DNA of 38,659 nt from a virus. The stretch is taken from positions 1 through 38,659 of IMG/VR virus record IMGVR_UViG_3300048110_000048. One strand, given 5' to 3'. How positions within the stretch are numbered: position 1 is the first letter of the stretch; each line of letters opens with the position of its first letter. The notes beneath the pieces were generated by a model, which saw only the letters and a program-made list of their open reading frames with translations, ran no database searches and was not told where the DNA came from. A program made the position numbers and the translations under genes. Positions 1 through 38,659 of this stretch are shown here, one piece after another.

Positions 1-658
1 ATACTTCAATAACAGTTTCATACCTAGTTCTAACAAATTCTATAGCTTCATATATTATATCCTCTACGCCTTGTACAATATTAGTGGCCATACTAATCTC
101 AAAGTTTAAGGAACTATTCTTAAAAGTATTGACCCTTTTATCAAGTGCGTCTAGGTATTTTTGATCATTCATTAGTCTATTTAAATCTAAAGCAATTTGC
201 ACATCCCATGCTTCAACGGCTTTACCCAGTGGCGAATTTTCAATAGCTTTTATCTTACCCTCAATATCCTTTTCAGATAATGATCCAAGTATAGAACAGT
301 TATGCTGAATGTTTCTATTATCCTTAGGTATCATTGATATAGCATCAGCAAGTCTTTGATTATTAATAATTTCTTCTAAGTTCTGTGCGCCATAGAAATC
401 AGTTGGACCAATTACTATATCGTCTAGTACAATATCATCTCTATCTTTTAGTTCATACGCCAAGGAATGAAACGTTGCGATTGAGTTTGGATTCCAATTA
501 CCTTTACGTTTAACAAAACAACCAGGGCACATATAAGAACAGCCCTCAAGTATTTCAAGATTCACTTGTATTTTATATTGAGTCATGGAAGATACAGAAG
601 TAAACTCCTCAAGCCTGTGGCCTTTGGTTACAATATTTTTCCATTCATCAGTTAACAT
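1..658 (-). CDS. Radical SAM enzyme, IGPTD family (3' end cut by window edge)
   Basis: The reading frame is open from the ATG at 658 to the left edge (219 codons visible), so the C-terminus is missing. Residues C40, C44 and C47 (GCSYMCPGCF) form the CX3CX2C motif that in radical SAM enzymes binds the [4Fe-4S] cluster used to cleave S-adenosylmethionine. Further on, IGPTDFYGAQN takes the place of the usual GGEP glycine motif, as in the paralogs at 836-1999, 1986-3008 and 4868-6046. The start overlaps the stop of the 64-aa gene by one base (TAATG), so translation is probably coupled. The C-terminal auxiliary-cluster cysteines seen in the paralogs would lie outside the window. Family membership is clear. 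The substrate is unknown; the operon suggests a peptide or virion-protein target. Confidence 0.88.
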   Translation of the reverse strand, partial: MLTDEWKNIVTKGHRLEEFTSVSSMTQYKIQVNLEILEGCSYMCPGCFVKRKGNWNPNSIATFHSLAYELKDRDDIVLDDIVIGPTDFYGAQNLEEIINNQRLADAISMIPKDNRNIQHNCSILGSLSEKDIEGKIKAIENSPLGKAVEAWDVQIALDLNRLMNDQKYLDALDKRVNTFKNSSLNFEISMATNIVQGVEDIIYEAIEFVRTRYETVIEV

Positions 659-852
659 TATTCGGTTTCCCACATCCTACAAGCAAAGTTGGGATTGTCC
701 ATTATTTCGTGTGGTGGATAACCCTCTTGAATTAACCAATCTTTTAATTTAAAATTCTTACCTTCTTTTGGAATTAAAGGTAGCATCTTAGGAAAGCCGT
801 ATCGCCATCCGTTAGGTGGGTCGATCATCACTCGCTTAGGTTTTACTAACAT
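658..852 (-). CDS. Small conserved phage protein, 64 aa
   Basis: A 64-residue soluble protein with the segments PPNGWRYGFPK and DWLIQEGYP. From memory, small proteins with a PPNGW-(K/R)-YGFP signature are common among hypothetical genes of marine T4-like phages; no function is known to me. It starts inside the 3' end of the upstream radical SAM gene (17-nt overlap) and its stop overlaps the next radical SAM start (TAATG), so it sits as a translationally coupled insert between two maturase-like genes. There is no signal peptide, membrane segment or metal-binding cluster (one cysteine only). It could be a small adaptor for the radical SAM enzymes, but that is inference from position. Confidence 0.7.
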   Translation of the reverse strand: MLVKPKRVMIDPPNGWRYGFPKMLPLIPKEGKNFKLKDWLIQEGYPPHEIMDNPNFACRMWETE

Positions 853-1999
853 ATGAAATATTCCTTAATCTTTCTAATTCTGGGTCATCATCTTTGGTTA
901 CTAAAAATTTCTTTCTATAACCATTCTTGTCATTCTCTACAGAATATCCATCCCACTCATACATAGTCTGAGCTGGTCCATTATAGTTATGTATATTATT
1001 TAACATATTCTCTTTAGGAGCAATACATCTATCTACACCAAGATAATCCCTAAGTGATATAATCTTTCTATTATAGCAAGAGAAGAACATAGGACACTCT
1101 TCACATTCGGTACCCTTTGCTCTTTCTATTTGTTCTTCTGTTATTCTGGTAGCATCTGCAAGGCTTTCTACTTTAAACATATCGTCATAGATTGCCATAT
1201 TTTCATACATAAAGGGGCTTAGGTACCATTCGCCTTTCTTATAGTTAAGAACTGTATAATTCATACCAGCGTGTGAATGGTCTATCATTATATTATTAAG
1301 AGTGCTATCTCTACTTAATACATTAAAATATTCATTAAACTTATCCAATGTTGCAAGTATGATATGTGCTTTATGGGACCTAGATACCGATGGTACAAAG
1401 TCTAAGATTGTATCAAACTTATCTATTGCATATGCATGAAGTTCTGCATAGTCTAAGTTATAGTCACGTATATTAATTACAAATGTGTATGTTATTTCGT
1501 GTTCTAAATTCTCATCAAGGTATGCTAATGCCTTTTTAGTTCTCTCAAGGTATGGTATAGAAAAGAAATTATAAGGGTTAGTAGCAATACCTATTTCTAT
1601 TTCAGTATCTATATTAATATTATTGCTAATATATTTAACAAACCTTTCTAAGTCACCATCGATAAGAGTAGATACGAATGCAAGAATAGGGCTATTTTCG
1701 TTGATAATATCTTCAAGATGTGGCATCACTTCATAGAAGTTTTCTGATGCAAGAAAGTCAGTCGGACCAATAAGCATCTCATCAACCAAGATCCCTTGAT
1801 CTGTAATGCTTCTTATAAAGTCTTTTGCTTTATCTAACTGATGCTCATCACTAGCATTACCTCTGCGATGTACAAAACAACCAGGGCACTTATGATGGCA
1901 ACCATCTAATACATCAAGCTGTATCTTTACTGCAGATACTGGCTTTGTCTGTGTCTCTGTGGTAAGTTCGTAATATAAATTGTTCTTAATGAGAGGCAT
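836..1999 (-). CDS. Radical SAM enzyme with C-terminal SPASM-like cysteines
   Basis: A 387-aa protein taken from the internal ATG at 1999 (MPLIKNNLYY); an upstream in-frame ATG at 2023 would add eight residues and overlap the preceding gene further. C34, C38 and C41 (GCHHKCPGCF) are the CX3CX2C motif for the SAM-binding [4Fe-4S] cluster. IGPTDFLASENF follows in the place where many family members have GGEP. Near the C-terminus CEECPMFFSC continues to a fourth cysteine 16 residues on (CX2CX5CX16C), matching the second half of the SPASM auxiliary-cluster motif found in peptide-modifying enzymes. It is one of four tandem paralogs downstream of the two CHxS-tailed proteins. Class assignment is strong; a peptide-maturase role is inferred from SPASM-like cysteines and context. 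Confidence 0.9.
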   Translation of the reverse strand: MPLIKNNLYYELTTETQTKPVSAVKIQLDVLDGCHHKCPGCFVHRRGNASDEHQLDKAKDFIRSITDQGILVDEMLIGPTDFLASENFYEVMPHLEDIINENSPILAFVSTLIDGDLERFVKYISNNINIDTEIEIGIATNPYNFFSIPYLERTKKALAYLDENLEHEITYTFVINIRDYNLDYAELHAYAIDKFDTILDFVPSVSRSHKAHIILATLDKFNEYFNVLSRDSTLNNIMIDHSHAGMNYTVLNYKKGEWYLSPFMYENMAIYDDMFKVESLADATRITEEQIERAKGTECEECPMFFSCYNRKIISLRDYLGVDRCIAPKENMLNNIHNYNGPAQTMYEWDGYSVENDKNGYRKKFLVTKDDDPELERLRNISYVSKT

Positions 2000-3008
2000 A
2001 CATATACTCTTTAAGGGCAACACAGTTTTCTAAACCTCGTGACTCCATATAAAGGTGTATATTACGCTCAGCACAACTCATCATATATTGGCAACCATTG
2101 CAGTCATCTACTTGTTGGGCATAATCTATATTATCATATAGTGTATTATTATCCATAGTTGTCTCAAACTGTGGTGTCCTTTGTATAATTACATCATACA
2201 AAAACGGATTGATATAAAGTTTATTATTATAGAAACTATAATTCTGGCAACCATAGCCATTAAATTTAGCATCAAAGAATGTATATAAATTTAGCCACTT
2301 ATCGTCAATCTTTTGCTCTATCATATCACGTCTAAAGTTAGCAAGATGCTGATCTACTTTACCACGAGCATTTCTATCTGTTAAGAATGATGGTGTAATA
2401 ATAATTGGTGCATTAAAGTCATCAAATACTTTTTGACATAAATCATTATAGCCAATTCTTTTAAACACATCTTTATGATAGTTTACTCTAAACTGTACAG
2501 AACCATACTTGAACAGCTCGAGGTTCTTGTACCACTCGTCCAAATCATTGTCAAGGTACTTATCTATATCTAAAACTATCTTAAAATCAATATCAGGTAC
2601 ACGATGTATATTTTTATATAACGACCATATCTTTGCAAGTTTTTCTTTAACTTCAGAATATGGTTGTAATAGAGTTGATGTAAATCCTACACCAGATATA
2701 CCATATAGTTTTTCCATATATGGGTGATTCATAATCTCACTAAAGTTCTCTGCATCAAAGATGTCTGTTGGACCAATAGTAATTTCGTCAGGGTGATAAG
2801 CCCCTTCAATTAATAGATTATAAAGTGTTTCTAAGTTATCTGCTTTGGTTAAATTCTTTCTAGGAATAAAACAACCTGGGCACATTTGACTACAACCATG
2901 TAGAATGTCCAGATTAATTTCTGTTCTTAAAAAATCTATGTTGGTTGGAGATTTTTCTTCATCATACTTATAATAACCAGCATATGTACTATTAAGTTTC
3001 GTTATCAT
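1986..3008 (-). CDS. Radical SAM enzyme with C-terminal SPASM-like cysteines
   Basis: A 340-aa paralog of the neighbouring enzyme. C39, C43 and C46 (GCSQMCPGCF) give the radical SAM CX3CX2C motif, IGPTDIFDAENF is the family's second signature, and CNGCQYMMSC plus a cysteine 16 residues later gives the same CX2CX5CX16C auxiliary-cluster pattern. The start lies 17 nt inside the 3' end of the 251-aa gene, and its own 3' end overlaps the next radical SAM gene by 14 nt, so the genes look co-translated. Having several diverged copies, not one, suggests each acts on a different residue or substrate, or that they form hetero-oligomers; the sequence cannot decide this. Confidence 0.9.
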   Translation of the reverse strand: MITKLNSTYAGYYKYDEEKSPTNIDFLRTEINLDILHGCSQMCPGCFIPRKNLTKADNLETLYNLLIEGAYHPDEITIGPTDIFDAENFSEIMNHPYMEKLYGISGVGFTSTLLQPYSEVKEKLAKIWSLYKNIHRVPDIDFKIVLDIDKYLDNDLDEWYKNLELFKYGSVQFRVNYHKDVFKRIGYNDLCQKVFDDFNAPIIITPSFLTDRNARGKVDQHLANFRRDMIEQKIDDKWLNLYTFFDAKFNGYGCQNYSFYNNKLYINPFLYDVIIQRTPQFETTMDNNTLYDNIDYAQQVDDCNGCQYMMSCAERNIHLYMESRGLENCVALKEYMYASH

Positions 3009-3747
3009 GGGTCAATAGAAAGTCTTCTGGAAAAAACTCAATTATCTGCTTTGTAAGATTAGTTTCACACAGAATATGGTAGAGGTCTTTACCAAAGTAT
3101 TTTGGAGAATCATTATAGGTTTGTTTATTAAACTCTCTGAATAATCCTTCTCTATTAAGTATTAACAGTAAAGCATCATAACCTGTAGTGAGCAGCCTAG
3201 CTATGTTAGGGCCACAAATAGCAGGTTTATCGTGTATGGTTATATCATTAACAAGCTCAGCCAGGTTAACTTCCTTTGCTTTCATATCATCATCAAAACC
3301 TTCATACAGTTTATACAGAGCAAAAGGAACTGCTGCAGCAACAGACTTAATTAAATCTTCCACTAATTCTTTATGGTCTTCTATAAACTTAAATATGAGT
3401 TTAGGAGGAAACATAAACAACAACTGGCTTTCTTGTTTAGTAATATCATGTTTATAATAAAACTTAATAATAAGAACAACAATCCTAGATAGTAAAGGAC
3501 AGTCAACCATAAAATCTGATTTGATATAAGACAGAATTAAGTCTTCATCTACAGCAGAAAATGTTGTCTTAAAGTTTGTATTAGCCAGATAGATTATGAT
3601 ATGCTGTGCAGATAGTTTTTCTTTACTTTTAGCATAATCAACCCAAAGGACATAATCCTCTAGTGTTGCTTTATCTTTGTATATCTGTACAAGATGTTGA
3701 GGAGAGAGTGGTAACTCATAACAAGTGCTTATATCAGGTGTTGTCAT
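2992..3747 (-). CDS. Unrecognised 251-aa protein within the radical SAM operon
   Basis: I do not recognise this family. The protein looks mostly alpha-helical, has no signal peptide or clear membrane segment, and has few cysteines. It begins MTTPDISTCYELP. A good ribosome binding site (AGAGGAAAA) lies about 8 nt before the ATG at 3747, in the 14-nt gap after the 367-aa gene, so it has its own translation start. Its end overlaps the following radical SAM gene by 17 nt. Being between two radical SAM genes and downstream of the CHxS-tailed proteins, it may be an accessory or recognition protein of the same system, but nothing in the sequence proves this. It could equally be an unrelated late phage protein. 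Confidence 0.75.
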   Translation of the reverse strand: MTTPDISTCYELPLSPQHLVQIYKDKATLEDYVLWVDYAKSKEKLSAQHIIIYLANTNFKTTFSAVDEDLILSYIKSDFMVDCPLLSRIVVLIIKFYYKHDITKQESQLLFMFPPKLIFKFIEDHKELVEDLIKSVAAAVPFALYKLYEGFDDDMKAKEVNLAELVNDITIHDKPAICGPNIARLLTTGYDALLLILNREGLFREFNKQTYNDSPKYFGKDLYHILCETNLTKQIIEFFPEDFLLTHDNET

Positions 3748-3761
3748 AATAAATTTTCCTC

Positions 3762-4865
3762 TTACAGTGGATATTTGTGAATAAGATAAGGAATACGATT
3801 CTGTCTTTTAGAGAAAAACTGAACATCTGTATTAATTAATTTAAGATCAGCTGTTAAGTTGTCCATATCAAAGTCATTTTGCAATACTTTACGAACAATA
3901 GGAAATACGTTTTTAAACTCTGTATAGAGATCCATATATTCCCAACCATCTGCATCACTATCTGCCTTATCTTGGTGTGCGGCAATAAATGCAGTGTCTG
4001 CTTTAACTTTATTCCACAATTCTTCTAACAGATAAAAGGCTGCGGTGTAGTTACCAGTGTTTGCTTTAGTGATATAACAGTCTTGAATAAAGGCTGTCTT
4101 ATCTGTAGCATATTGAGCATTACGTGCTGTGTTGGCATTCATCCAATCAATAACAGAAAGAATATATGCCAAATAGTGGCGTCTTGATGTAAAGTGTTCC
4201 ATTACATCTTGAGCCATAGTAGATTGGTGTACCGTAAACTTTTCTTTAATAAGTGATTGTACAGAAGCATTTCTATGATAATCATTTAACCAGAATAAAA
4301 GATCATAACTAAAGTTCTTACCATTTTGATAAACTACTGTATAAGGAGTTACTGCTCCGCCACCTGAGTCTGTAGAGAATAGTGTATCGACATAATTGGA
4401 TACATCATTCAGATCATTACTATTCATTAATATAGTTAGCATAGTATCCATAGAGAATATTTTCTCAAGAAATGATCCAACCATGCTTGTGATGTTAGTG
4501 CTTGAATCATAGAAACCAGAAGCTGTTAACAAACCATGAGTATATCTTGAAAATACTTTGATCATATCACCTGATGTTGCGAATAAGATAATACGTTTAT
4601 CACTGTTCTGTATAAAGTCTATATCATCTACATCATCAAAGTCCATGAAAGAAAGATACTCAGAAGCACCTGCTCTTGTACCTTCAGCAATAATATTATA
4701 TTGACCTTCAACCAGAAAGCCGCCCATAGATGATCTAACAATGATAATGTCTCTAGGAGTTCCTGTATGATAATATGAATTTAACTCACCACATACAGTA
4801 CCTAGGTTATCTATTGTTGAGATATACTTAGTGTTATTTAAGTAATAAAGATTTTGACCTATCAT
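3762..4865 (-). CDS. Unrecognised 367-aa protein within the radical SAM operon
   Basis: No family is recognised. The N-terminal part (to about residue 100) is rich in hydrophobic and glycine residues (VRSSMGGFLVEG, IIAEGTRAGASEYLSF) and looks alpha/beta; the rest appears helical, with aromatic-rich stretches. Only a few scattered cysteines are present, so no iron-sulfur site is suggested. The start is two bases after the stop of the radical SAM gene at 4868-6046, which implies coupled translation. It is located third after the two CHxS-tailed proteins. It may be a partner of the maturation enzymes or a virion protein; I cannot distinguish these. Confidence 0.75.
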   Translation of the reverse strand: MIGQNLYYLNNTKYISTIDNLGTVCGELNSYYHTGTPRDIIIVRSSMGGFLVEGQYNIIAEGTRAGASEYLSFMDFDDVDDIDFIQNSDKRIILFATSGDMIKVFSRYTHGLLTASGFYDSSTNITSMVGSFLEKIFSMDTMLTILMNSNDLNDVSNYVDTLFSTDSGGGAVTPYTVVYQNGKNFSYDLLFWLNDYHRNASVQSLIKEKFTVHQSTMAQDVMEHFTSRRHYLAYILSVIDWMNANTARNAQYATDKTAFIQDCYITKANTGNYTAAFYLLEELWNKVKADTAFIAAHQDKADSDADGWEYMDLYTEFKNVFPIVRKVLQNDFDMDNLTADLKLINTDVQFFSKRQNRIPYLIHKYPL

Positions 4866-4867
4866 AG

Positions 4868-6046
4868 TTACGCTCCGTCTTTCATTTTATATTGAGTTGC
4901 ATCATCATTCCAGGTGAAATCAAATGGATTATAATGCTTCAAGATTTCTTTAGGTAGTACACACCCGTCTATGTTTAAACTTTCTTGTGCTTCAAATACC
5001 AATCTATTAGCACATGCGATAGCAAATTTACAATCAGAGCAATCTTTTACCTTACTGGATCTATTTATACCTTTTGTAATCAATTCATTCTTACGCTGTA
5101 AGATTTCTTCAAAAGATAATCCGGTTACATCTAGGTTCTTATTAGATAAGAAGAATGCTTGTTCGTGCAACATAACATTTAGATGAGTAGTAGGTCCGTG
5201 TTCTCCTGGCACAATAGTTATACCAACAAAGTTAATTGAATTACAGTAAAGATTTGCCATTGACATAACAGCCTCTTTACTATTTTCATCATCGATAACT
5301 GATTCTAAAAATCTATTCCAAGCAAATAAGTTATTACGTTGAATGATCTGATTAGGCGCTCTTGCAAATGCTGGATTCATCTCTACGATTGTTCCATAAT
5401 CATTATAAGAACGTCGAATCATCCTATTATATTTTTCTTTATCTATTTGCTTTCCTACTACATTAGAAGCTTGTAGAGTCCAAGACCAATCCATCATCTT
5501 AGGAGTCTCGTTTTTAAAGAACTCTATCTTCTCCATAACAGAGTTATAATACTCATCGTCGTCTAACATCTCATTAATACGACCGACAGGCATAATAAAC
5601 TCGATAACCATATCACGTCTATATGCATCAAGGTCGTCTAGTATAGCAAATATTTCTCTTACTTTCTCCATAGAGGCTTTATCAAACTTAGCAGGAGAAG
5701 CAATACGTGCTCCTGTATGTTCTCTCATTATAGCTTGTACAGTAGGATTAGTTAAGATGTCTTTTGTATTTTTTGCTGAGAATAAATCAGTAGGTCCAAT
5801 AACAAATTCTCTTAGGTTACCTCCTACTCGTTTTACTCCATCAGCCAATTCTTTAGCTCGATCAATAATTTGTTGATTTACTTCTGGATCAATAGCTTTA
5901 TCAACAAAACACCCAAGACACCCTTGCTCACATCCAGACAATACTTCCATTTGGATTAATACATCAAACTTAGTTGCATCAGATGGTGCCAGACTTTCCG
6001 GTCCAGAATATCTCATCTGTTTACAATATGATTTTTGCATAGTCAT
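4868..6046 (-). CDS. Radical SAM enzyme coupled to the CHxS-tailed proteins
   Basis: A 392-aa protein if started at the ATG at 6046, which overlaps the stop of the preceding gene by one base (TAATG); a longer frame to 6097 would run deep into that gene and is less likely. C39, C43 and C46 (GCEQGCLGCF) form the radical SAM CX3CX2C motif, IGPTDLFSAKNT is the family signature, and CSDCKFAIAC with a cysteine 16 residues later is the CX2CX5CX16C SPASM-like auxiliary site. It is the first enzyme after the two proteins with CHxS repeats at their C-termini, so it is the best candidate for the enzyme acting on them. The chemistry (thioether, C-C bond or other) cannot be read from the sequence. Confidence 0.9.
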   Translation of the reverse strand: MTMQKSYCKQMRYSGPESLAPSDATKFDVLIQMEVLSGCEQGCLGCFVDKAIDPEVNQQIIDRAKELADGVKRVGGNLREFVIGPTDLFSAKNTKDILTNPTVQAIMREHTGARIASPAKFDKASMEKVREIFAILDDLDAYRRDMVIEFIMPVGRINEMLDDDEYYNSVMEKIEFFKNETPKMMDWSWTLQASNVVGKQIDKEKYNRMIRRSYNDYGTIVEMNPAFARAPNQIIQRNNLFAWNRFLESVIDDENSKEAVMSMANLYCNSINFVGITIVPGEHGPTTHLNVMLHEQAFFLSNKNLDVTGLSFEEILQRKNELITKGINRSSKVKDCSDCKFAIACANRLVFEAQESLNIDGCVLPKEILKHYNPFDFTWNDDATQYKMKDGA

Positions 6047-6435
6047 TAGCGTCTTCCTCTCGATGAATGGCAGCTTGTGTGGCAACTTGTATGGCATAAT
6101 ACAGCAGATATAGACCTATCTGTCATTCGTCCTTCAATTAGATCGACTGTTCTTCTCACTCCATCCTCTAATGTGTCTACAATATCCTGTGAATAAATTC
6201 TTGATCCTGCGCTCACGCCACCATCAATGTAGTTATCGAATAAGCTATTAGCAGCTCCAGTATATTCAAACCTATGGTTAGTAGAATTAGATGTAGTTTG
6301 ACCTAACCCTACGCCAGTATCCAAACCCATATACACGGTTGTAGTTATACTAATAGTTTTATCAAATGTACGGAGCCTTGCACCTGCATAAGTTTGCATG
6401 TAACTATCTAAACTATCTCTGGATAAATTACCCAT
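6046..6435 (-). CDS. CHxS-tailed small protein 2 (putative modified virion peptide)
   Basis: A 129-aa protein ending CHTSCHTSCHSSRGRR: three Cys-His-x-Ser units followed by a basic SRGRR tail. The body shares LRTFDKT, FEYTGAANSL and RIYSQ with the adjacent 140-aa paralog. The stop of that paralog and the ATG here share a base (TAATG), and the stop here is coupled the same way to the radical SAM gene. The cysteine and histidine residues are confined to the tail, apart from one histidine in the body. This layout (variable globular leader, short Cys/His/Ser core at the C-terminus, SPASM-like radical SAM gene next door) resembles RiPP precursors, especially the His-Xaa-Ser (Hxs) type. The alternative is an unmodified metal-binding fiber-tip or baseplate protein. 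Function is inference. Confidence 0.85.
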   Translation of the reverse strand: MGNLSRDSLDSYMQTYAGARLRTFDKTISITTTVYMGLDTGVGLGQTTSNSTNHRFEYTGAANSLFDNYIDGGVSAGSRIYSQDIVDTLEDGVRRTVDLIEGRMTDRSISAVLCHTSCHTSCHSSRGRR

Positions 6436-6857
6436 TACCTACGTCCTCTTGAAGTATGGCAACTTGAATGACAAGAGTTATGGCAAAGCACACCATTAAT
6501 ACTTCTATTTGTTATTCTACCTTCTATCTGATCAACTGTTCTTTGCATAGTATCGGTTATTGAATTAATAACGTGCTGTGAATACATACGCGAACCTGTA
6601 TAGATATTACCGTTTAAGTAATTGTTATATAATGAATTAGCAGCGCCTGTATATTCAAATCGTTCACCTATAGCTTGAGTTGCTGTCACACCGGTAAATC
6701 CTGAAGGGTATGATGTACCACCTGGATACAGATTCGAACCTCCTGGGCTTTGAAGTATATAAGCTGTTACATTAAAGTTGACTGTCTTATCAAAGGTTCT
6801 TAACTGGCCACCTGCCTGTGATTGCAAACTACTATTATTTTGTGCATATGTTGGCAT
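6435..6857 (-). CDS. CHxS-tailed small protein 1 (putative modified virion peptide)
   Basis: A 140-aa paralog of the next gene, ending CHNSCHSSCHTSRGRR. The body has LRTFDKTV, RFEYTGAANSLYNNYLNG and RMYSQ in common with its neighbour, while the central loop (Gly/Pro/Ser rich, about residues 37-60) differs. The positions labelled x in the CHxS units vary (N, S, T) whereas C, H and S do not, suggesting selection on those residues. It starts at a TAATG overlap with the collagen-like fiber gene and ends in another TAATG, so fiber, both small proteins and a radical SAM gene form one coupled string. From memory, proteins with this kind of tail occur in other marine T4-like phages as hypothetical proteins. 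Virion location and radical SAM modification are inferred. Confidence 0.85.
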   Translation of the reverse strand: MPTYAQNNSSLQSQAGGQLRTFDKTVNFNVTAYILQSPGGSNLYPGGTSYPSGFTGVTATQAIGERFEYTGAANSLYNNYLNGNIYTGSRMYSQHVINSITDTMQRTVDQIEGRITNRSINGVLCHNSCHSSCHTSRGRR

Positions 6858-7924
6858 TATACTTTAACCTCAACTGTTCCCTCGCCATCCTCTAGTGCCA
6901 CACCAACATAATGTAAGAAATGTATTTCGGAAGCTCTTGAAGCAGGGATTGCTTTACACTTACCAGCACCATCTGCTACTATATAGTCACCTTTTTCAGC
7001 AGTACCATTTATCTTACAAGGGATACGTCCTTTAAGAGCAATGAATGGCCACAGAGGATCTTCCATATTTTCTTCTGATACATTCATTCTAAGCCCAGGT
7101 AGTGTAGATATAACTCCTGCAATCGGCATACCAGTCTCCCATTTGGTAACCTCTTTGTCACCACCAATGCCTAATAGATCACCTGGTTCATATTCTGTAT
7201 CAGCTAAGTATTTCTCCGCAAGGTCAGACCAGTTAGCAGATGCTGCAGTACCTTGATAGATACCTGAGTTATCAACATATGATACATCGGAGCCATTTCT
7301 TCTAAACTGAACAATTCTGTTTGAAGATTGGTCTGCAACAATGTACCATCTATTTGAGTGATATTGAATTTTACCTTTTGTGCCTGGGTCACCAGTCCAG
7401 TTAGATGAAGCATTAGAGAAAACACCACCGTTAGTGATATCAATAGTACCACCACCAAAGACACCAATCTCACCTTTTTGGCCTTTAGAACCAGTTGAAC
7501 CAGTTGACCCAGTGCTACCAGTGCTACCAGTGTTACCAGTAGCACCTTTTTGACCTTTTTGACCAGTTGACCCAGTATCACCTTTTTGTCCTTTTTGGCC
7601 TTTAGCACCAGTGGCACCAATCTCACCTTTTTGGCCTTTAGAACCAGTTGAACCAGTGTTACCGACTTCACCTTTTTGGCCTTTAGCACCAGTGCTACCA
7701 GTGCTACCAGTGTTACCAGTCTGACCTTTTTGACCTTTTTGTCCAACTTCGCCTTTTTGGCCCTTCTGGCCTTTCTCGCCTTTTTGGCCTTTGTTACCCT
7801 GAGGAGCATCTCCAAAATTGGTAGCTCTCCATACACCTTTACCACTATCATATTGCCACGTTATGTTGTTAGCAGTATGTGTTGCGCCGTTTGATGGCGA
7901 TGATGGGAAATTAATTGCCGCCAT
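6857..7924 (-). CDS. Collagen-like tail fiber protein, 355 aa
   Basis: The N-terminus (INFPSSPSNGATHTANNITW) is typical of marine phage fiber modules. Residues 43-156 are 38 uninterrupted Gly-X-Y triplets made mainly of GQK, GST, GNT, GAK, GEV/GEI and GDT, with no proline. A beta-rich C-terminal domain follows (SDLAEKYLADTEYEPGDLLG and GVISTLPGLRMN), a type common at the ends of phage fibers, close to self-processing or trimer-forming tips. The protein is probably a trimeric rod on the tail. A strong Shine-Dalgarno (CAGGAGGCGC) lies inside the end of the preceding gene just before the ATG at 7924. The downstream CHxS protein is coupled by TAATG, which suggests the two products are used together. 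Confidence 0.88.
   Translation of the reverse strand: MAAINFPSSPSNGATHTANNITWQYDSGKGVWRATNFGDAPQGNKGQKGEKGQKGQKGEVGQKGQKGQTGNTGSTGSTGAKGQKGEVGNTGSTGSKGQKGEIGATGAKGQKGQKGDTGSTGQKGQKGATGNTGSTGSTGSTGSTGSKGQKGEIGVFGGGTIDITNGGVFSNASSNWTGDPGTKGKIQYHSNRWYIVADQSSNRIVQFRRNGSDVSYVDNSGIYQGTAASANWSDLAEKYLADTEYEPGDLLGIGGDKEVTKWETGMPIAGVISTLPGLRMNVSEENMEDPLWPFIALKGRIPCKINGTAEKGDYIVADGAGKCKAIPASRASEIHFLHYVGVALEDGEGTVEVKV
7457..7798 (-). repeat. Collagen-type Gly-X-Y coding repeats (38 triplets)
   Basis: A 9-base periodic tract coding for 38 consecutive Gly-X-Y triplets (residues 43-156 of the fiber). The low-complexity DNA gives spurious open frames on both strands and could recombine with the related tract at 8326-8682. 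Confidence 0.92.
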
Positions 7925-7926
7925 GT

Positions 7927-9627
7927 TTATGCGCCTCCTGCGCCGTATATAGTTTTGAGTGCTGTACCTGATGAGTTATACACTACAAAGGATACGACAG
8001 ATTTCAATTCATTTGAGCCTACGGCATCATCTGCTAGTTTAACTTGGGTTACGGAATTAGATGCTAAATGTTCTGCATCTATAGATCCTGCTGCATAGTG
8101 TTCTGAGTTAATTACATCATTGGCAATCTTTGATCCGTTAATTGCATCGCCTGCAATCTTAGCTGTTGTTATAGATCCGTCTGGAACAACCGAGTTATTA
8201 AACTGAACCCACTGACTTGAAGAGCCATCATTATAGTAAATATATAAAGATCCAGTTTCCTCATCCCACCACAAGTCTCCATCTACTGCACCTGATGGAG
8301 CAGTTACACTTGTAATAGCCTCGTTACCTTCACCTTTAATACCTTTAATACCAGTGTCGCCTTTTTGTCCTTTTGAACCAGTGGCACCAATCTCACCTTT
8401 TTGACCCTTTTGGCCTTTAGCACCGTCAGCACCTACTCCGCTTTCACCTTTTTGGCCTTTAGCTCCGGTAGAGCCTCCAGCACCAACTTCACCTTTTTGA
8501 CCTTTTTGGCCTTTAGCACCAGTTTCACCTTTTTGGCCTTTAGCACCAGCAGATCCAACTTCACCTTTTTGACCTTTAGCACCGTCAACACCAATTGTAC
8601 CAGCTGCACCTTTTTGACCTTTTGCACCTGCAGCACCAGCTGCACCTGCATCTCCGCCTGCACCTTTTTGACCTTTATCACCAGCTAAGGCTGCATTGGC
8701 AATCGTATGCTTTTCCCATGTACCTGCTGAAGCGTCATATACTGGTATAAGGTCAGTACTTACGGCATCAGCACCTGTTGAGAATGCTGATAAGGCAGAT
8801 CCAACATTAGTTGCATCAGTAACGTCAGCACTAGCTTCAATGTTATCAAGCTTACCACCATCTGTTGAAACATCTCTACCATCAACAGTACCAGTAACTG
8901 TAATATTATTAATACCACTTACATTATTAGAACCATCTTTTGATACAAGAGTACCAGATGTTGGTAGTGTAAGCCCAGTTGTTCCGCTTGTAGTAAAGGT
9001 AGTTGCGTGTGCACCAGATGTAGTAAGAGAACCACCAAGGGTTAAGTTACCTAACAGACTTAAAGTTCTATTAGCATTTTTTACATCAAAGGTTAATGTT
9101 CTATCAGCACTTGCGTTAACTGAACTGTTGGCTGCAAATAATAATTCATAACTTGCCTCAGTAACATCTCTAAGTGAGAATGTACTAATATCATTAATTG
9201 CACCAGAGTTAATATCAACTGTGTTAATAACAGGAGAAGTTAAGGTTTTATTAGTAAGTGTTTCTGTACCAGTTAATGATGCAAAAGAGTTACCGCCACT
9301 AAGAGCTGCATTCCACTGACCAATAGTACCAGTCAAACTATTGTTTGAAAGGTTAATAGTTTTGTTGGTAAGGGTTTGTGTTCCCGTTAATGTAGCCGCA
9401 TAGTCTGAGTCTAATCTAAGTTGAACATCTGCATCATTAGTACCAGAGTTAAGAACCACAATGCCAGCATCAGATCCTTTAGGAGCAATAGTCCCAACAA
9501 AATCGCCCATGGTACCAGAGTCCATAGCAATATTTGTTTCTCTAATAATCTGAAGAACATCTGCTGAGTCAGTTTGTGCTGCTAACCCTAGGCTGATATT
9601 TAGATGATCACTTAGCTTTTGTACCAT
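7927..9627 (-). CDS. Collagen-like tail fiber protein, 566 aa
   Basis: Three parts are visible. Residues 1-315 are a Ser/Thr/Asn-rich beta-type shaft with the fiber repeat TLTGTQTLTNKT. Residues 316-434 are 39 Gly-X-Y triplets with one two-residue break after GES, rich in GAK, GQK and GEV and lacking proline. The C-terminal part has decapeptide-like repeats (SITTAKIAGDAI and similar) and ends in VVSFVVYNSSGTALKTIYGA. That last module recurs at the end of the 492-aa fiber at 32749-34227, so the two fibers likely share a partner or folding tip. A ribosome binding site AGGAAA precedes the ATG at 9627 in the 16-nt gap. It is a probable virion fiber. Confidence 0.87.
   Translation of the reverse strand: MVQKLSDHLNISLGLAAQTDSADVLQIIRETNIAMDSGTMGDFVGTIAPKGSDAGIVVLNSGTNDADVQLRLDSDYAATLTGTQTLTNKTINLSNNSLTGTIGQWNAALSGGNSFASLTGTETLTNKTLTSPVINTVDINSGAINDISTFSLRDVTEASYELLFAANSSVNASADRTLTFDVKNANRTLSLLGNLTLGGSLTTSGAHATTFTTSGTTGLTLPTSGTLVSKDGSNNVSGINNITVTGTVDGRDVSTDGGKLDNIEASADVTDATNVGSALSAFSTGADAVSTDLIPVYDASAGTWEKHTIANAALAGDKGQKGAGGDAGAAGAAGAKGQKGAAGTIGVDGAKGQKGEVGSAGAKGQKGETGAKGQKGQKGEVGAGGSTGAKGQKGESGVGADGAKGQKGQKGEIGATGSKGQKGDTGIKGIKGEGNEAITSVTAPSGAVDGDLWWDEETGSLYIYYNDGSSSQWVQFNNSVVPDGSITTAKIAGDAINGSKIANDVINSEHYAAGSIDAEHLASNSVTQVKLADDAVGSNELKSVVSFVVYNSSGTALKTIYGAGGA
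8326..8682 (-). repeat. Collagen-type Gly-X-Y coding repeats (39 triplets, one break)
   Basis: A 9-base periodic tract coding for residues 316-434 of the 566-aa fiber. The register is broken once by a GV dipeptide between GES and GAD. The KGE, KGD and QKG steps resemble the tract in the next gene. Confidence 0.92.
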
Positions 9628-18532: not shown

Positions 18533-19477
18533 TTATTTCCTATACTGTTCCATAGTAAAAGAAGAACCAGTGAGTGTATTATAGTCAGCATCAAAGTTGG
18601 ACCAAACCAAAGCCTCTGGTGCATCATATAGCATATCGCAGTTCTTACAATAATCTATAGAATCAAATTCATGCATCTCATGTGCTTTTCTTAGTTTATT
18701 GTATTCATCTCCATACCATACTTCCTCAATAGTCTGATGTGATAAGTGTCCTAATACTCCTTTACTATCTTGACCTAAAACCATACAGCAAGGAACAACA
18801 GCACCAGTCATACCATTATTACCACCTGCTCTTACAATCAGATCAGGAGAGAAAGGTCTACCACAACTTCTTTTCTTTTTACCAACTCTCCAGTCGACAT
18901 CAAGTTGACCAGACCAGTTATGCATTTTCCATATAGAAGCCTTAACCCCAGGAACATGTTTAATCCAGTTACATATGTATTCACTACACTCATAGTTTAC
19001 ATTATCGTTATCTAAGATTAAATGATATGAACCTATATTACCGCCATACTCAATAGCTGCATTTGCATTATCTCTAACTTCATAGAAAGCATCTTTGCTC
19101 ATTTGTTCTTTATACAATAGAGGATTATATCCGGTAACAGATATACGAGCAAAGTGCATACCAGCATCAATGGTTCTTTTCATAAGATCATCTTTAAACC
19201 AGAAGCCGTTAGTGATAAAAGACATTTTAAATCCTCTATCAGTACCAGCTTTCACAAAGTCAGGCAGTTTCTTATTCATGGTTGGCTCACCAGAACCTTC
19301 CAAATAAATCTCTTTACATTCTGTATCTGTTAACTGATCTAACATATTGACAAACATCTGGTAGTTCATCATTCTTTTAAATGATTTTTCTCTACCACCT
19401 TCAAAAGAATGTGGGCAGAAGGTACAAGTATAGTTACATGAACCACATATTTCTATGACTGCTTTCTCAATCATCAT
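18533..19477 (-). CDS. Radical SAM/SPASM protein, 314 aa
   Basis: C14, C18 and C21 (SCNYTCTFC) form the radical SAM cluster motif. LEGSGEPTMN is the SAM-binding glycine motif, followed by FITNGF. The C-terminal part has the SPASM features: CGRPF, a glycine four residues before VVPCC (GAVVPC), GHLSHQTIEEVW, and CKNCD. Two adjacent ATGs exist (19477, 19474); AGGA is better spaced for the second. It opens the minus arm of the island, back-to-back with the plus-strand cluster across a 43-nt gap. SPASM enzymes act on peptides or on small molecules such as sugars; in this glycan-like island a sugar or protein-side-chain target is equally possible. Confidence 0.92.
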   Translation of the reverse strand: MMIEKAVIEICGSCNYTCTFCPHSFEGGREKSFKRMMNYQMFVNMLDQLTDTECKEIYLEGSGEPTMNKKLPDFVKAGTDRGFKMSFITNGFWFKDDLMKRTIDAGMHFARISVTGYNPLLYKEQMSKDAFYEVRDNANAAIEYGGNIGSYHLILDNDNVNYECSEYICNWIKHVPGVKASIWKMHNWSGQLDVDWRVGKKKRSCGRPFSPDLIVRAGGNNGMTGAVVPCCMVLGQDSKGVLGHLSHQTIEEVWYGDEYNKLRKAHEMHEFDSIDYCKNCDMLYDAPEALVWSNFDADYNTLTGSSFTMEQYRK

Positions 19478-19520
19478 ATTTCCTTAATATATAACTATAT
19501 ACTTTATATATAGGTTAATA
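19478..19520. promoter_or_regulatory. Divergent intergenic region of the island
   Basis: A 43-nt, almost pure A/T gap between oppositely directed radical SAM genes. It has TATATA-type strings on both strands (for example TTTATATATAG near 19503-19513) and the ribosome binding site AGGAAA for the minus gene. It must serve starts in both directions, so -35 regions would lie within coding sequence. No exact TATAAATA is present. Confidence 0.45.
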
Positions 19521-20774
19521 ATGGATAGTGATAATTTCTTTTGTATATCACCATGGACTATGGTTTATGCACATGATAATGGCAAATATGGTCCTTGCAA
19601 CTTTGCTGTGCCTGACGAGAATATGGGTGTTGATAACACATCTATAACAGAATGGATGCAGAGTGATAAGATGAATCAACTTCGATCTGAGATGCTTGAT
19701 CCTAATTCTGATCATAAGTTAGTAAACCAAGTCTGCCAGAAATGTAAGTTTGATGAAGAAAGATATGACTGGTCTCGAAGACTTGATACTACAACTCAAG
19801 CAAAAAGAAAAAAAGATTACTGGGATATAATAACTCGATCTGTTAAGATGAGCCAAGTTGCTGGTTATGATTTTGATGAAAGAATATTAGAACTACAGCT
19901 TAGAGTTTTTGGATCTAAATGTAACCTAGATTGTTATATGTGCCATCACTTTAGCTCTACGACTAGACAGAAAATGGCATACGATAAAGGTGTATGGAAT
20001 GATACTGTTTGGTATGATATGGATCGCTCTAAGAAATTATCAATGACTGCTAACTTAGATAAGGTAGATGATAATGTAGTTATTAATCAAATGATTGAAT
20101 TAGCTCCATATGTAAAGACATTAAAAATCATTGGAGGTGAGCCTCTTGTTATGAAGCAATACTATTCTGTATTGGATAGATTAGTGCAATCCGGCGAATC
20201 TAAAAACATTATAATAAAGTATCAAACAAATCTAACCAAGTTAAAGAATGGTAAACACAATTTTTTAAATTATATTACACATTTTAAAAAAGTTCTTATA
20301 ACAGTTTCTATTGATGCCGTAGGTAAATATAATGATTATATTAGACGCAGATCATTATTTCAAGAAATTGAAGATAATATAGAAGCGTGTTCAAAATATG
20401 ATAATGTTGTAATAAATCTAAACTCTACACTATCGGTTCCAGGCATACTACGGTTTCATGAGATAGATGAATACACTAAGAACAATCCTCACATAAGAGA
20501 TAACAGCCACTGGTTAATAAAGGATCCAAAACAGCTTAGAATAAATAATCTACCTAAACCATTAAAAGATAAACTAATACCATATTATAAAGATAATCCA
20601 AAATATGCAGATGTAGTAAAGGCCTTAGAATTACCTGAAGAGGATGATGCAAACTTTAAAGAAATATGCAACTATTTAATGAAAGGCGATGAAGCATATA
20701 GAGGTACCAAATGGGAGATGGAGTTATTTGATGTCTTTCCTGAACTAGAAGAATATTATAATGTTTCAGACTAA
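19521..20774 (+). CDS. Radical SAM protein with N-terminal SPASM/twitch half, 417 aa
   Basis: The domain order is unusual. C8 and C26 with G21 fit CX12GX4C, the first half of a SPASM motif, and C72/C75 (CQKC) supply the remaining ligands, all before the radical SAM core. C134, C138 and C141 (KCNLDCYMC) form the SAM cluster motif and IIGGEPLVM the glycine motif. Such twitch-type radical SAM proteins are annotated in marine phages. The C-terminal 130 residues (SHWLIKDPKQLRINNLPKPL) have no clear domain. It is the first gene of the plus-strand cluster and overlaps the next gene by 14 nt. The substrate is unknown. Confidence 0.9.
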   Translation: MDSDNFFCISPWTMVYAHDNGKYGPCNFAVPDENMGVDNTSITEWMQSDKMNQLRSEMLDPNSDHKLVNQVCQKCKFDEERYDWSRRLDTTTQAKRKKDYWDIITRSVKMSQVAGYDFDERILELQLRVFGSKCNLDCYMCHHFSSTTRQKMAYDKGVWNDTVWYDMDRSKKLSMTANLDKVDDNVVINQMIELAPYVKTLKIIGGEPLVMKQYYSVLDRLVQSGESKNIIIKYQTNLTKLKNGKHNFLNYITHFKKVLITVSIDAVGKYNDYIRRRSLFQEIEDNIEACSKYDNVVINLNSTLSVPGILRFHEIDEYTKNNPHIRDNSHWLIKDPKQLRINNLPKPLKDKLIPYYKDNPKYADVVKALELPEEDDANFKEICNYLMKGDEAYRGTKWEMELFDVFPELEEYYNVSD

Positions 20775-21489: not shown

Positions 21490-21491
21490 TT

Positions 21492-24427: not shown

Positions 24428-24429
24428 CT

Positions 24430-32744: not shown

Positions 32745-32748
32745 TTAA

Positions 32749-34227: not shown

Positions 34228-34446
34228 TTATATTTTCTCTACAAGTTTACCGAGGAGATGTTTGATTTCACTCATTTCATTTTTTAATAAACTTACATCT
34301 TCCTTCAGTTGTTTTTCTTCGTCTGCTTTTGCAGATCGTAATCTTTTTCTCTCACGAGCTGCTTCTATTTCACTTCTATTTATATTAATTATGGCACCCG
34401 ATTTTGGGTCCCTCACTAGATTAGAATGTCCATCAACCTTTAACAT
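34228..34446 (-). CDS. Small coiled-coil phage protein, 72 aa
   Basis: The N-terminus MLKVDGHSNLVRDPKSGAII is, from memory, shared by small proteins of many marine T4-like phages beside structural genes. The remaining 45 residues (EIEAARERKRLRSAKADEEK onward) are strongly charged and end in a likely coiled coil with leucine/isoleucine spacing (LLKNEMSEIKHLLGKLVEKI). The start codon overlaps the stop of the giant structural gene. It may be a scaffold or assembly helper. A TATAAATA on the minus strand at 34377-34384 within it could serve the next fiber but is equally a chance match. Confidence 0.78.
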   Translation of the reverse strand: MLKVDGHSNLVRDPKSGAIININRSEIEAARERKRLRSAKADEEKQLKEDVSLLKNEMSEIKHLLGKLVEKI

Positions 34447-37400
34447 TATACACTCAGAGCAATTATTCTTAGGTCTTGTATAACTGGAGGAGTTGAAGTA
34501 TTAGTTGATTTTAATACTATCTTAACTTGGAATTGTGAGAAAGCATCCATGGTTCCGCCATCACCACCTACCAAATATCTGTACTCTCTGAATACATTAA
34601 TATTTTGATCAGAAGGAATTTCAGTTTCAAGTGTAGCTAGTACCCAAGTTGAATCAAGTAAGTTACCTGCAGCTGCTGTATCTGAAGCATTTGTTCTATA
34701 GTAAACATCAAAGCTTGCTGCAGATGGTCTGTTTGCACCAATCATAATCTTTAACCCAACAGCTGACTCATCAAGAACCACAGGTGAGGTAATATGTTTA
34801 GATAGATGTGAACCACCGGTTGGATTTGTTTCAGCAACATACTCTAGTGGAATATTACCACCAGTACCACTTGCAACTTGTTGATCAACTAAATTTCTTA
34901 CGGCTGTTACAGAAGCACGTTGAAGATCAACTACTGGTGCTACTATATCAGTAGATGTAGACACATCAATTTTATATGTTAATGATTTACTACCTGATAA
35001 GGAAGCCGTTTCATTCTCACTTGAAGCAATTAACCTAGGGTTTGCAAAGGTATTATTATCTCTATTTGATATGCTTTGATAACTACCATCTACAGAATAT
35101 GCAGTTTCAGATCCAGCAAATGATTTACCTGATGTAAACTTAGCTGAGTGCGAAATTAAAGTCTGTGCTGGAGAAAGTGTTTCAACATATGGTACTACTG
35201 TATCCATCATAATATTTCTCGTGACAGTAATATTATCACCACCACCAGCTACAGCTTGATTTGCAGTATCTGAATTACCTGCAACAAACTCGAAGCCTGT
35301 ACCATCTACTTTAGTGACTGCTCTTGTACCATTAATATTAGATGCAGCTATTCCACCGAATGTTGCAGCTCCTGCAATTGTTACTGAGTCACCTACTACA
35401 AGGCCATGACCAAATGCAAGAACCTTAACTGTAGCACTTGAATTTGTAGAATCTAATGGATTACTTGCCAATAAGATTGGTGGGATTGGTGCATTGTTTA
35501 ATGTAACATATCCACTTTCTACAGTAAAGTTAGCACGATCAATAGTAAATGTTAAATCTCTTTCTTGATCTGGTGTCCATGTTCTACTATTCTGAGATTT
35601 AAACAATGAACCTAGTGTAGGTTGTTTAGCAACTCTTAGTTCTGTAGAGTTAAGCATTAGATCACCAGCTTTGGCTACATACACATTATAGTCTATAGAA
35701 TCAGCAAGTAGAACAATAGAATATTCCATGTTACCATTCAAGTAAACTGGCTCATCAAACTCAAAGTAAGTTACTGCACTTGCGTCAGCTGATATGTTTA
35801 CATCAGAAGGTGAAAGAACCTTAACTCCATTAGGTATAACTTCATCTGCTGATGGAACACCATTTACGGTTGATCTAATTTGCAACATTACTGGAACTGT
35901 TGTATCTTTAGTTTGGAATCTAACACCAACTCTAGTTATAAATGCACCATCATTTTCATCAATAAAGAATGTCTGAGCCAAAGGATCTCTACGACGTTGA
36001 TTCCTTGGATCAAGCTGAGGATTTCTTTCAATAGCAAAGTCTCGTGAACTACGTCGTCTACGTCTACGTGGTTGAACAGGTGGAGGTGGAGCTGCTATAG
36101 TTAGCACTCTAGTTGTTGTAAATGTTGCTTGTCTAGTCTCTAATACACCTGTTGATGCAAAAGGTTCTTTTGCAATTGATGTTGCATTCTCATCATTAGG
36201 TACACTAATATCAAGTAATTTAAACTCACGTGTACCAGTTCTAAACTTAATTGCATCGGTATTAGGTATAAAGAATGAACCTTCAATAGAACCATCAGTT
36301 CCTGTTGTAAGTGTTGACTTACCATCAGGATGTTCAGTTGCTCTATTATGTCTATTACCAAAATCATCAGTAGTAGTAGCAAATCTAGTAAATGTTTCTG
36401 ATCTTACCCAATCAGCAACTGGTTTGTTATTAAAGAAAGCATACACTTGAGTGCTAGGTTTAAGACCTTGTGCACGGAAGAAAACTTTCTTAGATCGCAT
36501 AAACGGAATAAATGCAACATCTAACACACGATCATTAACAAACTCTCGTACTGTTTCTGAAGCAACAACTCTGTTGACTGCTAATATATTATTTCTTGCT
36601 GTATCTCTGGCTGTTAGATTTGCCCTTGGTGTATCATTTCTTCCTATCCAGTTCCATCTCCATGTATTCCATAGTAATGCACCATTATTAACAAGTCTTG
36701 TTCCACCATCTTCCACACGATCTGGTAATCTATCAACAGCAGTCCACTCATCTGATGATGGTGAGAGATCAATAAACCCTTCATTTAGAATAACAGCAAA
36801 TGGGTTAATATTCATTGCTTCTGTTGCGAGAGGTTGATCAACATAATTTGTATTATCATGTTTTAGGTATACACTATCACCTTTAAGAATTGTGTTACTA
36901 GATTGATCAGAGTCATAAATTAGTCTAAGGTTATTTTCTTCAAACCATGGTCGCATAATCCTAGCTTCTGGATCAATAGCTGCATTATAATCTGCAGACA
37001 TATATGACCTAGCTTGATCAGCAAAGTTATCCACAAAGAAACCAGACTGTGTTCTATTATTGCCGCTAGCATCAAGAACAGCAAATGATGATGTATCTAA
37101 TTCAAGAAGGCTTAGTGATGTAGCCTCTTCAACATTATCAATTCTTTCTTCTAGTTTACCAATGTCTCTCATAGTAAAGTTTTTAGCTTTAATAGTAGTT
37201 GAAGTGATATCTGTATCACTAACTGTATATGGATTCATATCAATATGGAATAAATCCAGCGAGTTATTTGGAGCTGGTGGTAATTGAGGATTAACACTAG
37301 CTGCACCACTAATAGTATCAATAAAACTATTTTTATCAATCGTCACACGAACCTTTTTACCAAGGTAATATTCTGCATCAAATGTGATAAGACCTGTATT

Positions 37401-38659
37401 CTTAGGCATCTCATTAATTCTAGCACCTGAACCAAAGTTACCTGAGCTGTTAACACTTGAACGGAAGTCTAATACATTTCTTAGAGATACTTCAGTGCCA
37501 TTTGCTTGTGTGTATGACGGAATGTTTTCATAGTCAACTTGACCTGTATAAGAGTTAACCGCAAAGAAATCTCCAGATGTACCATGGACAAAGTGCTTAT
37601 ATCTTACAAACACATCAGATCCTGGTGTAGCAGCTCCAGCTTTCTTAACCATTCTACCGTTTAGATATGCAAAGTCACGTTGACCATTATCTAAATCGTA
37701 TAACGTTGTTAAGTCAGCACCATCTGAGTCAGCAAGAGTAATTCTAGTGATGCTACTTACATCAGCCTTTGTAAAGTTTAGATTACCAGAGCCATCCGGT
37801 GTGATTGTTTCTGTTACTTCTGTAAGTGTTTTGGTTCTAACAGACCCTGCACTCTTATTTACATAAGTAAGGATCTCATAAGTACCATCTTGTTGGCCAG
37901 TTAAGTTAGATGCAGCAGTACCAGCACCAGATGCTGTAAAGATAACATCAATATCAGAGTCAGCATGTGCTGCAATCCAATCACTAGTGTCAGCAAAAGT
38001 TTCCCCTGTATTGGTTACTGTAATAGTAGCAGATCCACTACTTATGTTTGCTGTTCTATATCTTTGTACTGTAAGACTAATATCTGTAATAGTCTTTGGT
38101 CTATCCCCAGGAACTGGAAATAATAGACTTGTTGATGCTTCATCTTTAAATGCTGCAAGACTATTTTCAAGCACTAGTGTCATATAGTCTGTAGAACCAG
38201 TACCAATTGATTTTGTATTTCTTTTATTTTTACCAGAAGCAATTTGTACATCAAACAGATATACTCTATAGTTCGATCCGTCTTCCTCTACAGCTCTTAC
38301 ACGTGCTGTACCGATAGCAGTACCAGTACCAGCAGTATTCGGAAATAGTGTAACTTCTTGGAATGATGCAATATTAGGTAAGCCTTTATTAGCAGATACT
38401 ATAACATATTGGCCATACGCAGCGGCTGTTACTTCATTATTTTCTGTCTGAGTTGTTCTAGGTTTACTTACTCCAATTCTAACTGGAGAGTTGATAACAG
38501 CTCTATATCCATCTACATATGCAACACCAGGCGAAATATCAAAGTCTAATACACTTTCGTCTGAATCATTAGTATCAAAACTAATAGCAAACCTTTTAGC
38601 AATATAGTTACCTGACTCTTCACTTGTTCTAAGAGCCATTCTGTCTTCTATTTTATTAT
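34446..38659 (-). CDS. Giant DUF4815-like virion structural protein (5' end outside window)
   Basis: At least 1397 residues are visible from an internal ATG at 38639, but the frame stays open to the window edge with the codons N-K-I-E-D-R before that Met, and MALRTSEESGNYIAKRF looks like the middle of the known N-terminal domain (the segment around xARRTxDESGNY). So the real start is outside the window. FDISPGVAYVDGYR also fits DUF4815-type tail proteins of marine T4-like phages. Around residue 850 from that Met there is a Pro4 run followed by six Arg, then DPLAQTFFID, seen in this family. The C-terminal part is beta-rich. Likely a baseplate or tail-associated structural protein. Confidence 0.85.
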   Translation of the reverse strand, partial: NKIEDRMALRTSEESGNYIAKRFAISFDTNDSDESVLDFDISPGVAYVDGYRAVINSPVRIGVSKPRTTQTENNEVTAAAYGQYVIVSANKGLPNIASFQEVTLFPNTAGTGTAIGTARVRAVEEDGSNYRVYLFDVQIASGKNKRNTKSIGTGSTDYMTLVLENSLAAFKDEASTSLLFPVPGDRPKTITDISLTVQRYRTANISSGSATITVTNTGETFADTSDWIAAHADSDIDVIFTASGAGTAASNLTGQQDGTYEILTYVNKSAGSVRTKTLTEVTETITPDGSGNLNFTKADVSSITRITLADSDGADLTTLYDLDNGQRDFAYLNGRMVKKAGAATPGSDVFVRYKHFVHGTSGDFFAVNSYTGQVDYENIPSYTQANGTEVSLRNVLDFRSSVNSSGNFGSGARINEMPKNTGLITFDAEYYLGKKVRVTIDKNSFIDTISGAASVNPQLPPAPNNSLDLFHIDMNPYTVSDTDITSTTIKAKNFTMRDIGKLEERIDNVEEATSLSLLELDTSSFAVLDASGNNRTQSGFFVDNFADQARSYMSADYNAAIDPEARIMRPWFEENNLRLIYDSDQSSNTILKGDSVYLKHDNTNYVDQPLATEAMNINPFAVILNEGFIDLSPSSDEWTAVDRLPDRVEDGGTRLVNNGALLWNTWRWNWIGRNDTPRANLTARDTARNNILAVNRVVASETVREFVNDRVLDVAFIPFMRSKKVFFRAQGLKPSTQVYAFFNNKPVADWVRSETFTRFATTTDDFGNRHNRATEHPDGKSTLTTGTDGSIEGSFFIPNTDAIKFRTGTREFKLLDISVPNDENATSIAKEPFASTGVLETRQATFTTTRVLTIAAPPPPVQPRRRRRRSSRDFAIERNPQLDPRNQRRRDPLAQTFFIDENDGAFITRVGVRFQTKDTTVPVMLQIRSTVNGVPSADEVIPNGVKVLSPSDVNISADASAVTYFEFDEPVYLNGNMEYSIVLLADSIDYNVYVAKAGDLMLNSTELRVAKQPTLGSLFKSQNSRTWTPDQERDLTFTIDRANFTVESGYVTLNNAPIPPILLASNPLDSTNSSATVKVLAFGHGLVVGDSVTIAGAATFGGIAASNINGTRAVTKVDGTGFEFVAGNSDTANQAVAGGGDNITVTRNIMMDTVVPYVETLSPAQTLISHSAKFTSGKSFAGSETAYSVDGSYQSISNRDNNTFANPRLIASSENETASLSGSKSLTYKIDVSTSTDIVAPVVDLQRASVTAVRNLVDQQVASGTGGNIPLEYVAETNPTGGSHLSKHITSPVVLDESAVGLKIMIGANRPSAASFDVYYRTNASDTAAAGNLLDSTWVLATLETEIPSDQNINVFREYRYLVGGDGGTMDAFSQFQVKIVLKSTNTSTPPVIQDLRIIALSV

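Follow-up and report, generated by a model that had tools for sequence, protein, structure and literature searches.

A candidate RiPP-like system in the tail module of phages: small proteins with Cys-His-x-Ser tails linked to radical SAM enzymes

Hundreds of tailed phages encode, beside their tail-fibre genes, a small CHxS-tailed protein whose tag spans 16 residues. The tag is the same throughout and constantly keeps the company of radical SAM genes, whose enzymes resemble those making cross-links in peptide antibiotics; phages therefore probably modify a part of their own particle chemically. Taking all parts of the proposal jointly, we consider it likely that a phage SPASM enzyme modifies the tail of a tail- or baseplate-associated protein in a RiPP-like manner: the genes provide a conserved C-terminal core, a linked maturase and a protein body that is free to vary. 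The tail is presumably the modified part. We regard the system as a variant of the SPASM/RiPP kind that has a good chance of being a new kind of virion modification. The fullest form of the proposal holds that, in several lineages of tailed phages, the enzyme converts the CHx(S/N) repeats at the end of a virion tip or baseplate protein into a rigid and possibly metal-binding structure of several rings, which would be the first case of a virion protein modified by a radical SAM enzyme; this form has in our judgement an even chance of being right. A search of the open-access literature, with subscription papers outside its scope, found no report of radical SAM modification of a virion protein.

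The window, a virus record of 38,659 bases, encodes two tailed paralogs, P1 and P2 (Table 1), whose C-terminal ends read LCHNSCHSSCHTSRGRR and LCHTSCHTSCHSSRGRR; the C-terminal tryptic peptide of P1 is SINGVLCHNSCHSSCHTSR. Both tails have the form CHxSCHxSCHxSRGRR, confirming the three CHxS units plus SRGRR described in an earlier note on this DNA, and the TAATG start/stop overlaps that it listed at 6857, 6435 and 6046 are all present, as are the three further radical SAM paralogs, each with CxxxCxxC. At the DNA level, a pattern encoding three CHxx units is found at two places in the window and in none of 100 dinucleotide-preserving shuffles. Pfam, NCBIfam and PHROGs yield no function for P1 or P2.

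Table 1. Features of the system and of its surroundings in the window
Feature	Position	Strand	Remarks
P1, CHxS-tailed protein, presumed substrate	6435..6857	(-)	140 aa
P1 tail	6438..6485	(-)	CHNSCHSSCHTSRGRR
P2, CHxS-tailed paralog, presumed substrate	6046..6435	(-)	129 aa
P2 tail	6049..6096	(-)	CHTSCHTSCHSSRGRR
Collagen-like tail fibre, TAATG-coupled to P1	6857..7924	(-)	Pfam Collagen 1.4e-18; PHROG tail fibre
Type A radical-SAM-like enzyme	4868..6046	(-)	392 aa from coupled ATG; CEQGCLGC, IGPTD, CxxCx5C...C
Protein kept in window-type clusters	3762..4865	(-)	367 aa; no Pfam match
phrog_20767-like protein, conserved system partner	2992..3747	(-)	PHROG 3.1e-5; HMM 3e-10
Type A paralog	1986..3008	(-)	CSQMCPGC, CxxCx5C
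Type A paralog	836..1999/2023	(-)	CHHKCPGC; Radical_SAM 8.2e-5, below cut-off
Type A paralog, cut at window edge	2..658	(-)	CxxxCxxC
Large baseplate/tail-module protein	34446..38639	(-)	Pfam DUF4815

The surroundings place these genes in a tail module. An HMM of the fibres from loci that encode the second enzyme of the system, called type B, matches the fibre next to P1 at 1e-33, the C-terminal domain of this fibre being common to fibres upstream of type B clusters, and the C-terminus of the large DUF4815 protein matches a gene upstream of the same clusters (HMM 4.7e-42). A 215 aa open frame at 7204-7851 lies in another frame of the collagen-like fibre gene and is a side effect of its repeat. 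Two distant fibre-module proteins, at 31827-34227 and 7927-9627, end alike (KTLYGAGS, KTIYGAGGA), which suggests duplicated fibre modules. Between the two modules, at 18533-26187, the window holds five more CxxxCxxC radical SAM-like genes, one of which (18533-19477) has Pfam Radical_SAM and SPASM matches, and among them a PP-loop-like gene at 21776-22513.

The tag is far better conserved than the proteins that bear it. A pattern scan of IMG/VR recovered at least 119 stretches and, together with further loci, at least 195 distinct tailed proteins, in all of which three Cys, three His and three Arg are invariant; at these positions synonymous codons are mixed (TGT/TGC, CAT/CAC, AGA/CGN), a pattern that points to selection on the tail. 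A motif scan forces part of such invariance, so tails found solely via the neighbouring enzyme were also sampled: 66 tails in register, plus one (L155) with a shifted end. In this motif-independent sample every unit starts with CH (198/198), position 3 varies freely (A, S, T, N, Q, G, Y, V, K, F), S fills position 4 in 170 units, N in 24 and A in four, with Thr, Gly and Asp absent there from all 198, and the tails end in RGRR (60), RSRR (3), RNRR (2) or RARR (1). Stripped of their tails, the bodies fall into BLAST clusters of 114, 51 and 4 members plus small groups that are not joined, and a profile comparison of the two main body families gave 3.5% probability, that is, no detectable homology. 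The AlphaFold2 model of P1 has a pLDDT of 74; that of a type B substrate shows a folded body (mean pLDDT 84) and a tail of about 52. Neither model has a significant match in the PDB, and matches in BFVD are mainly relatives, such as the DT01 and Atu_ph07 proteins, along with three Myoviridae sp. ctijX18 proteins. Both models place a helix-hairpin-helix order before the tail, which was not counted as evidence.

Linkage between tail and enzyme holds in both directions. A type A or type B enzyme is linked to the tail in each of the 128 tail contigs (these are contigs or stretches, some of which may overlap): in 120 the enzyme lies inside the stretch, and in the other eight, where the stretch is cut, a whole-record search found it every time. 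The earlier note had named tail genes lacking a radical SAM gene as the observation that would speak against it, and the 128 include no such case. In all 60 adjacent pairs the gene immediately upstream of the tail gene is type B, and type A follows the tail gene directly in 28 of 30, as it does behind P1 and P2. Starting from the enzyme instead, protein similarity to type B retrieved 357 IMG/VR stretches; among the best 80 of these, four end before the next gene and the remaining 76 all have a tail gene directly downstream, two loci with CHxN tails, which lie outside the first pattern, being counted as linked. Relatives of the window enzyme share their record with a tail at 46/46 loci, within 2.5 kb at 43, 40 of these twice, and elsewhere in the record at the other three. 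That phages combine a Cys-His tail and radical SAM enzymes in a RiPP-like arrangement, as first proposed, is thus strongly supported. A fixed structural operon could account for some of the linkage, yet rearranged clusters keep it.

This linkage also bears on a simpler reading, in which the tail is a plain metal-binding tip, comparable to the HxH sites of T4 gp37 or to PAAR-like tips, and the radical SAM enzyme acts elsewhere, for instance on fibre glycans or another protein. Metals are typically bound by Cys and His, and other radical SAM genes do lie in the same tail region, but several hundred contigs show the association in both directions, type B immediately precedes the tail gene whenever the two are adjacent, and position 4 is strictly S, N or A, for which metal binding offers no obvious reason; we consider this reading improbable.

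In cellular genomes the tail pattern is rare: among 84,980 prokaryote genomes it occurs on just 11 contigs, all from metagenome bins, and the system therefore looks viral. Three tail-gene contigs (L139, L141 and L145) belong to one Rhodobacteraceae bin (Water_Bin34) and probably represent viral sequence that was binned into a bacterial MAG. Only seven of 50,697 annotated phage records match type B, in Burkholderia phages FLC6, FLC8 and SURPRISE13, Pseudomonas phage DT01, Sinorhizobium phage Phosso and, twice, Agrobacterium phage Atu_ph07. A tail-family gene is present in all of these phages; direct reading of the sequences showed the tail in FLC6, DT01, Atu_ph07 and Phosso, and the FLC6 tail protein recurs at full length in FLC8 (100% identity) and SURPRISE13 (88% identity). 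Searches of annotated phages with P1 and with a 20-aa tail peptide found no match because the bodies diverge, and in these genomes the family is reached through the enzyme neighbourhood only.

The conserved operon runs fibre, cupin oxygenase, type B enzyme, tail gene, phrog_20767. Among the same best 80 of 357 type B loci, the fibre is present in 62, the cupin in 76 and phrog_20767 in 67, and the HxD...H metal triad of the cupin is intact in 76/76. The fibre, phrog_20767 and baseplate genes of these loci all have homologs in the window. A whole window-type cluster, L049, contains fibre, P1, P2, type A, a 366 aa protein, phrog_20767, type A, cupin and type B, and ends with two more radical SAM genes, so that both enzyme types are present; type B is also found in most window-type records. 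From this layout, the window is most likely such a cluster with its left edge cut. The giant-phage clusters L009:3819-16136 and L010:517-11407 contain a cupin, several radical SAM genes and 2OG-Fe(II) oxygenases, that of FLC6 also has two DHFR-like genes, and the other radical SAM enzymes of the L009 and L010 clusters may have further substrates.

Type B has the make-up of a complete SPASM enzyme. SPASM proteins were defined here by CxxxCxxC plus C-x(9-15)-G-x4-C, C-x2-C-x5-C-x3-C and a last C; type B carries CxxxCxxC and the seven-Cys pattern C245-x10-G-x4-C261 ... C300-x2-C-x5-C-x3-C ... C323, invariant in 13 diverse members. Against TIGR04085 the FLC6 enzyme, gp71, scores 28.8 bits (cut-off 27) and that of DT01 25.7. 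The best NCBIfam matches are DynA, PapB, YhhB, anSME and FxsB, all below the curated cut-offs, and PDB sequence matches include 8vpo, 5wgg (presumably a thioether-forming enzyme), anSME and ChlB. Type B does not belong to either tested 3-CyFE family (YhhB, 46-50 bits against a cut-off of 445; FxsB, 34-44 against 370) or to the PapB family of ranthipeptide maturases (47-50 against 340). The type B enzyme at L009:3819-4883 matches PADLOC pVip at 3e-11, through the radical SAM core only, and type B could therefore be misannotated as a defence gene; type B scores 22-39 bits against NCBIfam viperin (cut-off 180), and the linked tail gene argues against a viperin defence role.

Type A is a different enzyme. 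The gene next to P2, called SPASM-like in the earlier note, does have CxxxCxxC and IGPTD but only half of the SPASM pattern (CxxCx5C...C), and Pfam reports no Radical_SAM match for it; type A and type B show no profile alignment beyond the Cys motif (hhalign 4.8%). Type A is best regarded as a candidate divergent, twitch-like radical SAM enzyme. The full-SPASM enzyme of the system is a separate gene, type B, outside the window, and it, more probably than the window's own gene, is the key maturase.

In the proposed mechanism, the substrate would be a small folded protein associated with the tail, baseplate or fibre, with flexible C-terminal C-H-x-(S/N/A) repeats closed by RGRR. Type B would act on this tail and oxidise each unit, helped by the cupin-type Fe oxygenase, phrog_20767 and, in window-type phages, the type A enzymes. 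In a triceptide-like bond, the ring of each His would be linked to the beta carbon of the second residue after it; a tail could then contain as many as three rigid rings, with Cys remaining available for disulfides, metal binding or a second cross-link, perhaps via the cupin or the extra radical SAM enzymes. The likely purpose would be to harden or metallate an exposed virion tip.

Taken alone, a triceptide-like cross-link from His to Ser, Asn or Ala is the likeliest chemistry, which we put forward tentatively. Gly has no beta carbon and Thr is branched; their absence from position 4, together with the His-x-(S/N/A) units, fits a bond from His to C-beta. All 198 units of the motif-independent sample follow the aromatic-x-acceptor grammar of triceptides. 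In the documented three-residue cyclophanes, His C2 is bonded to C-beta of Ala (HaaB, ScaB) or Arg (YhhB), Phe to Ser (MscB) and Trp or Phe to Asn (XncB, OscB), always from i to i+2 (PMC11002830). The invariant Cys falls outside the scope of a His cross-link and may form thioethers, disulfides or metal sites.

The main chemical rival is a Cys thioether alone, of the ranthipeptide or sactipeptide type, from the Cys sulfur to the alpha or beta carbon of a nearby Ser, Asn or Ala. Invariance of Cys in the tails is in keeping with it, as are PapB, a thioether ranthipeptide maturase, among the best NCBIfam matches and 5wgg among those in the PDB; a thioether would, however, leave the equally invariant His unexplained, and His-x-(Ser/Asn/Ala) agrees with documented triceptide acceptors (PMC11002830), so that we hold this rival to be rather unlikely. 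The Cys thioethers first suggested for this system are one possible chemistry, the S/N/A grammar being a better fit to His-x-(S/N/A) cross-links.

A further reading makes the tail a recognition handle only, the enzyme modifying a site in the body or a neighbouring fibre. SPASM enzymes often bind their peptide at a distance from where the reaction takes place, RGRR resembles a docking or stop signal, and some clusters contain 2OG oxygenases. Against this reading, the bodies have no detectable homology across groups, and the CHx(S/N) units are multiplied in one protein, as reactive core units are; the chance of this reading is slim. That protein (L110:7832-8515) ends in more than ten CHx(S/N/D) units, in blocks split by VPV or VV, a run that resembles a multi-core RiPP precursor.

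The same protein, with the precursor-plus-maturase layout, recalls RiPP clusters whose product is released, and the tailed protein could by analogy be the precursor of a bioactive peptide (toxin, signal or bacteriocin) and not a particle component. We consider this highly improbable: the body is predicted with confidence to fold as a domain of some 160 residues, no protease or exporter was recognised among the cluster genes scanned, and the gene lies in a fibre/baseplate module and, in Atu_ph07, in a cluster defined by mass spectrometry.

Gene order gives good support for placing the system in the tail/fibre/baseplate module. For Atu_ph07, the available excerpts of the paper describe a virion-protein cluster, CDS 170-215, defined by ESI-MS/MS (Attai et al., 2018, PMC6102473), and the tail protein of this phage is gp170, the first (boundary) gene of that cluster. 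The numbering there agrees with RefSeq for portal (198), core (204), capsid (215) and wedge (182), and identification of gp182 as gp25 supports the match; the same excerpts do not mention gp170 by name as a detected protein. Presence of the tail protein in virions is thus indicated indirectly, by gene position. Of the original idea of a modified virion peptide, the tail, fibre or baseplate context is borne out by gene order, whereas the virion location is indirect and comes from Atu_ph07.

Radical SAM genes have been reported in the giant phages Aeromonas 332-Vera, Burkholderia FLC6, S13 and Ralstonia RP12/RP31 (PMC12390700, PMC8066314, PMC11898562, PMC5468394); in 332-Vera, where they are called highly unusual, eight of them lie inside the structural gene cluster (PMC12390700). 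The excerpts of these four papers available to us propose no substrate, tail motif or function. The tailed protein provides a concrete candidate substrate for the clusters left unexplained there, places RiPP-like chemistry on a folded viral protein, and makes the unannotated phrog_35144, phrog_31457 and phrog_20767 readable as parts of one system. Isolated phages (FLC6, DT01, Atu_ph07, Phosso) have the system, which is thus open to mass spectrometry. Should the tail be a cross-linked tip, phages would have a new way to build hardened or metal-loaded tail parts, and the system would supply new peptide-cyclising enzymes that follow a very regular grammar in recognising their substrates.

Among known systems, the Hxs RiPP system, to which the earlier note related the tails, likewise pairs HxS units with radical SAM enzymes, but the phage units are CHxS, and scores far below the cut-offs for HxsB (24.8-26.2 bits against 370) and HxsC (16.4 against 267.9) place the phage enzymes outside that system, so that the relation is one of resemblance. 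The metal-binding tips of T4 gp37 and PAAR proteins are also Cys/His-rich parts of tail-associated proteins; their repeat differs, and to our knowledge they have no linked radical SAM enzymes. Type B shares the radical SAM motif and the seven-Cys pattern with SPASM maturases (DynA, PapB, YhhB, FxsB, ChlB, anSME), whereas its full-length scores lie far below the curated cut-off of each family, it is viral, and its substrate would be a folded tail-module protein in place of a short leader-core peptide. The i/i+2 grammar is that of triceptides, with His-x-Ala in HaaB/ScaB, Phe-x-Ser in MscB and x-Asn in XncB/OscB (PMC11002830); within this comparison, made at the level of sequence grammar alone, the phage tail is set apart by an invariant Cys before every His, by its RGRR end and by its setting in phages.
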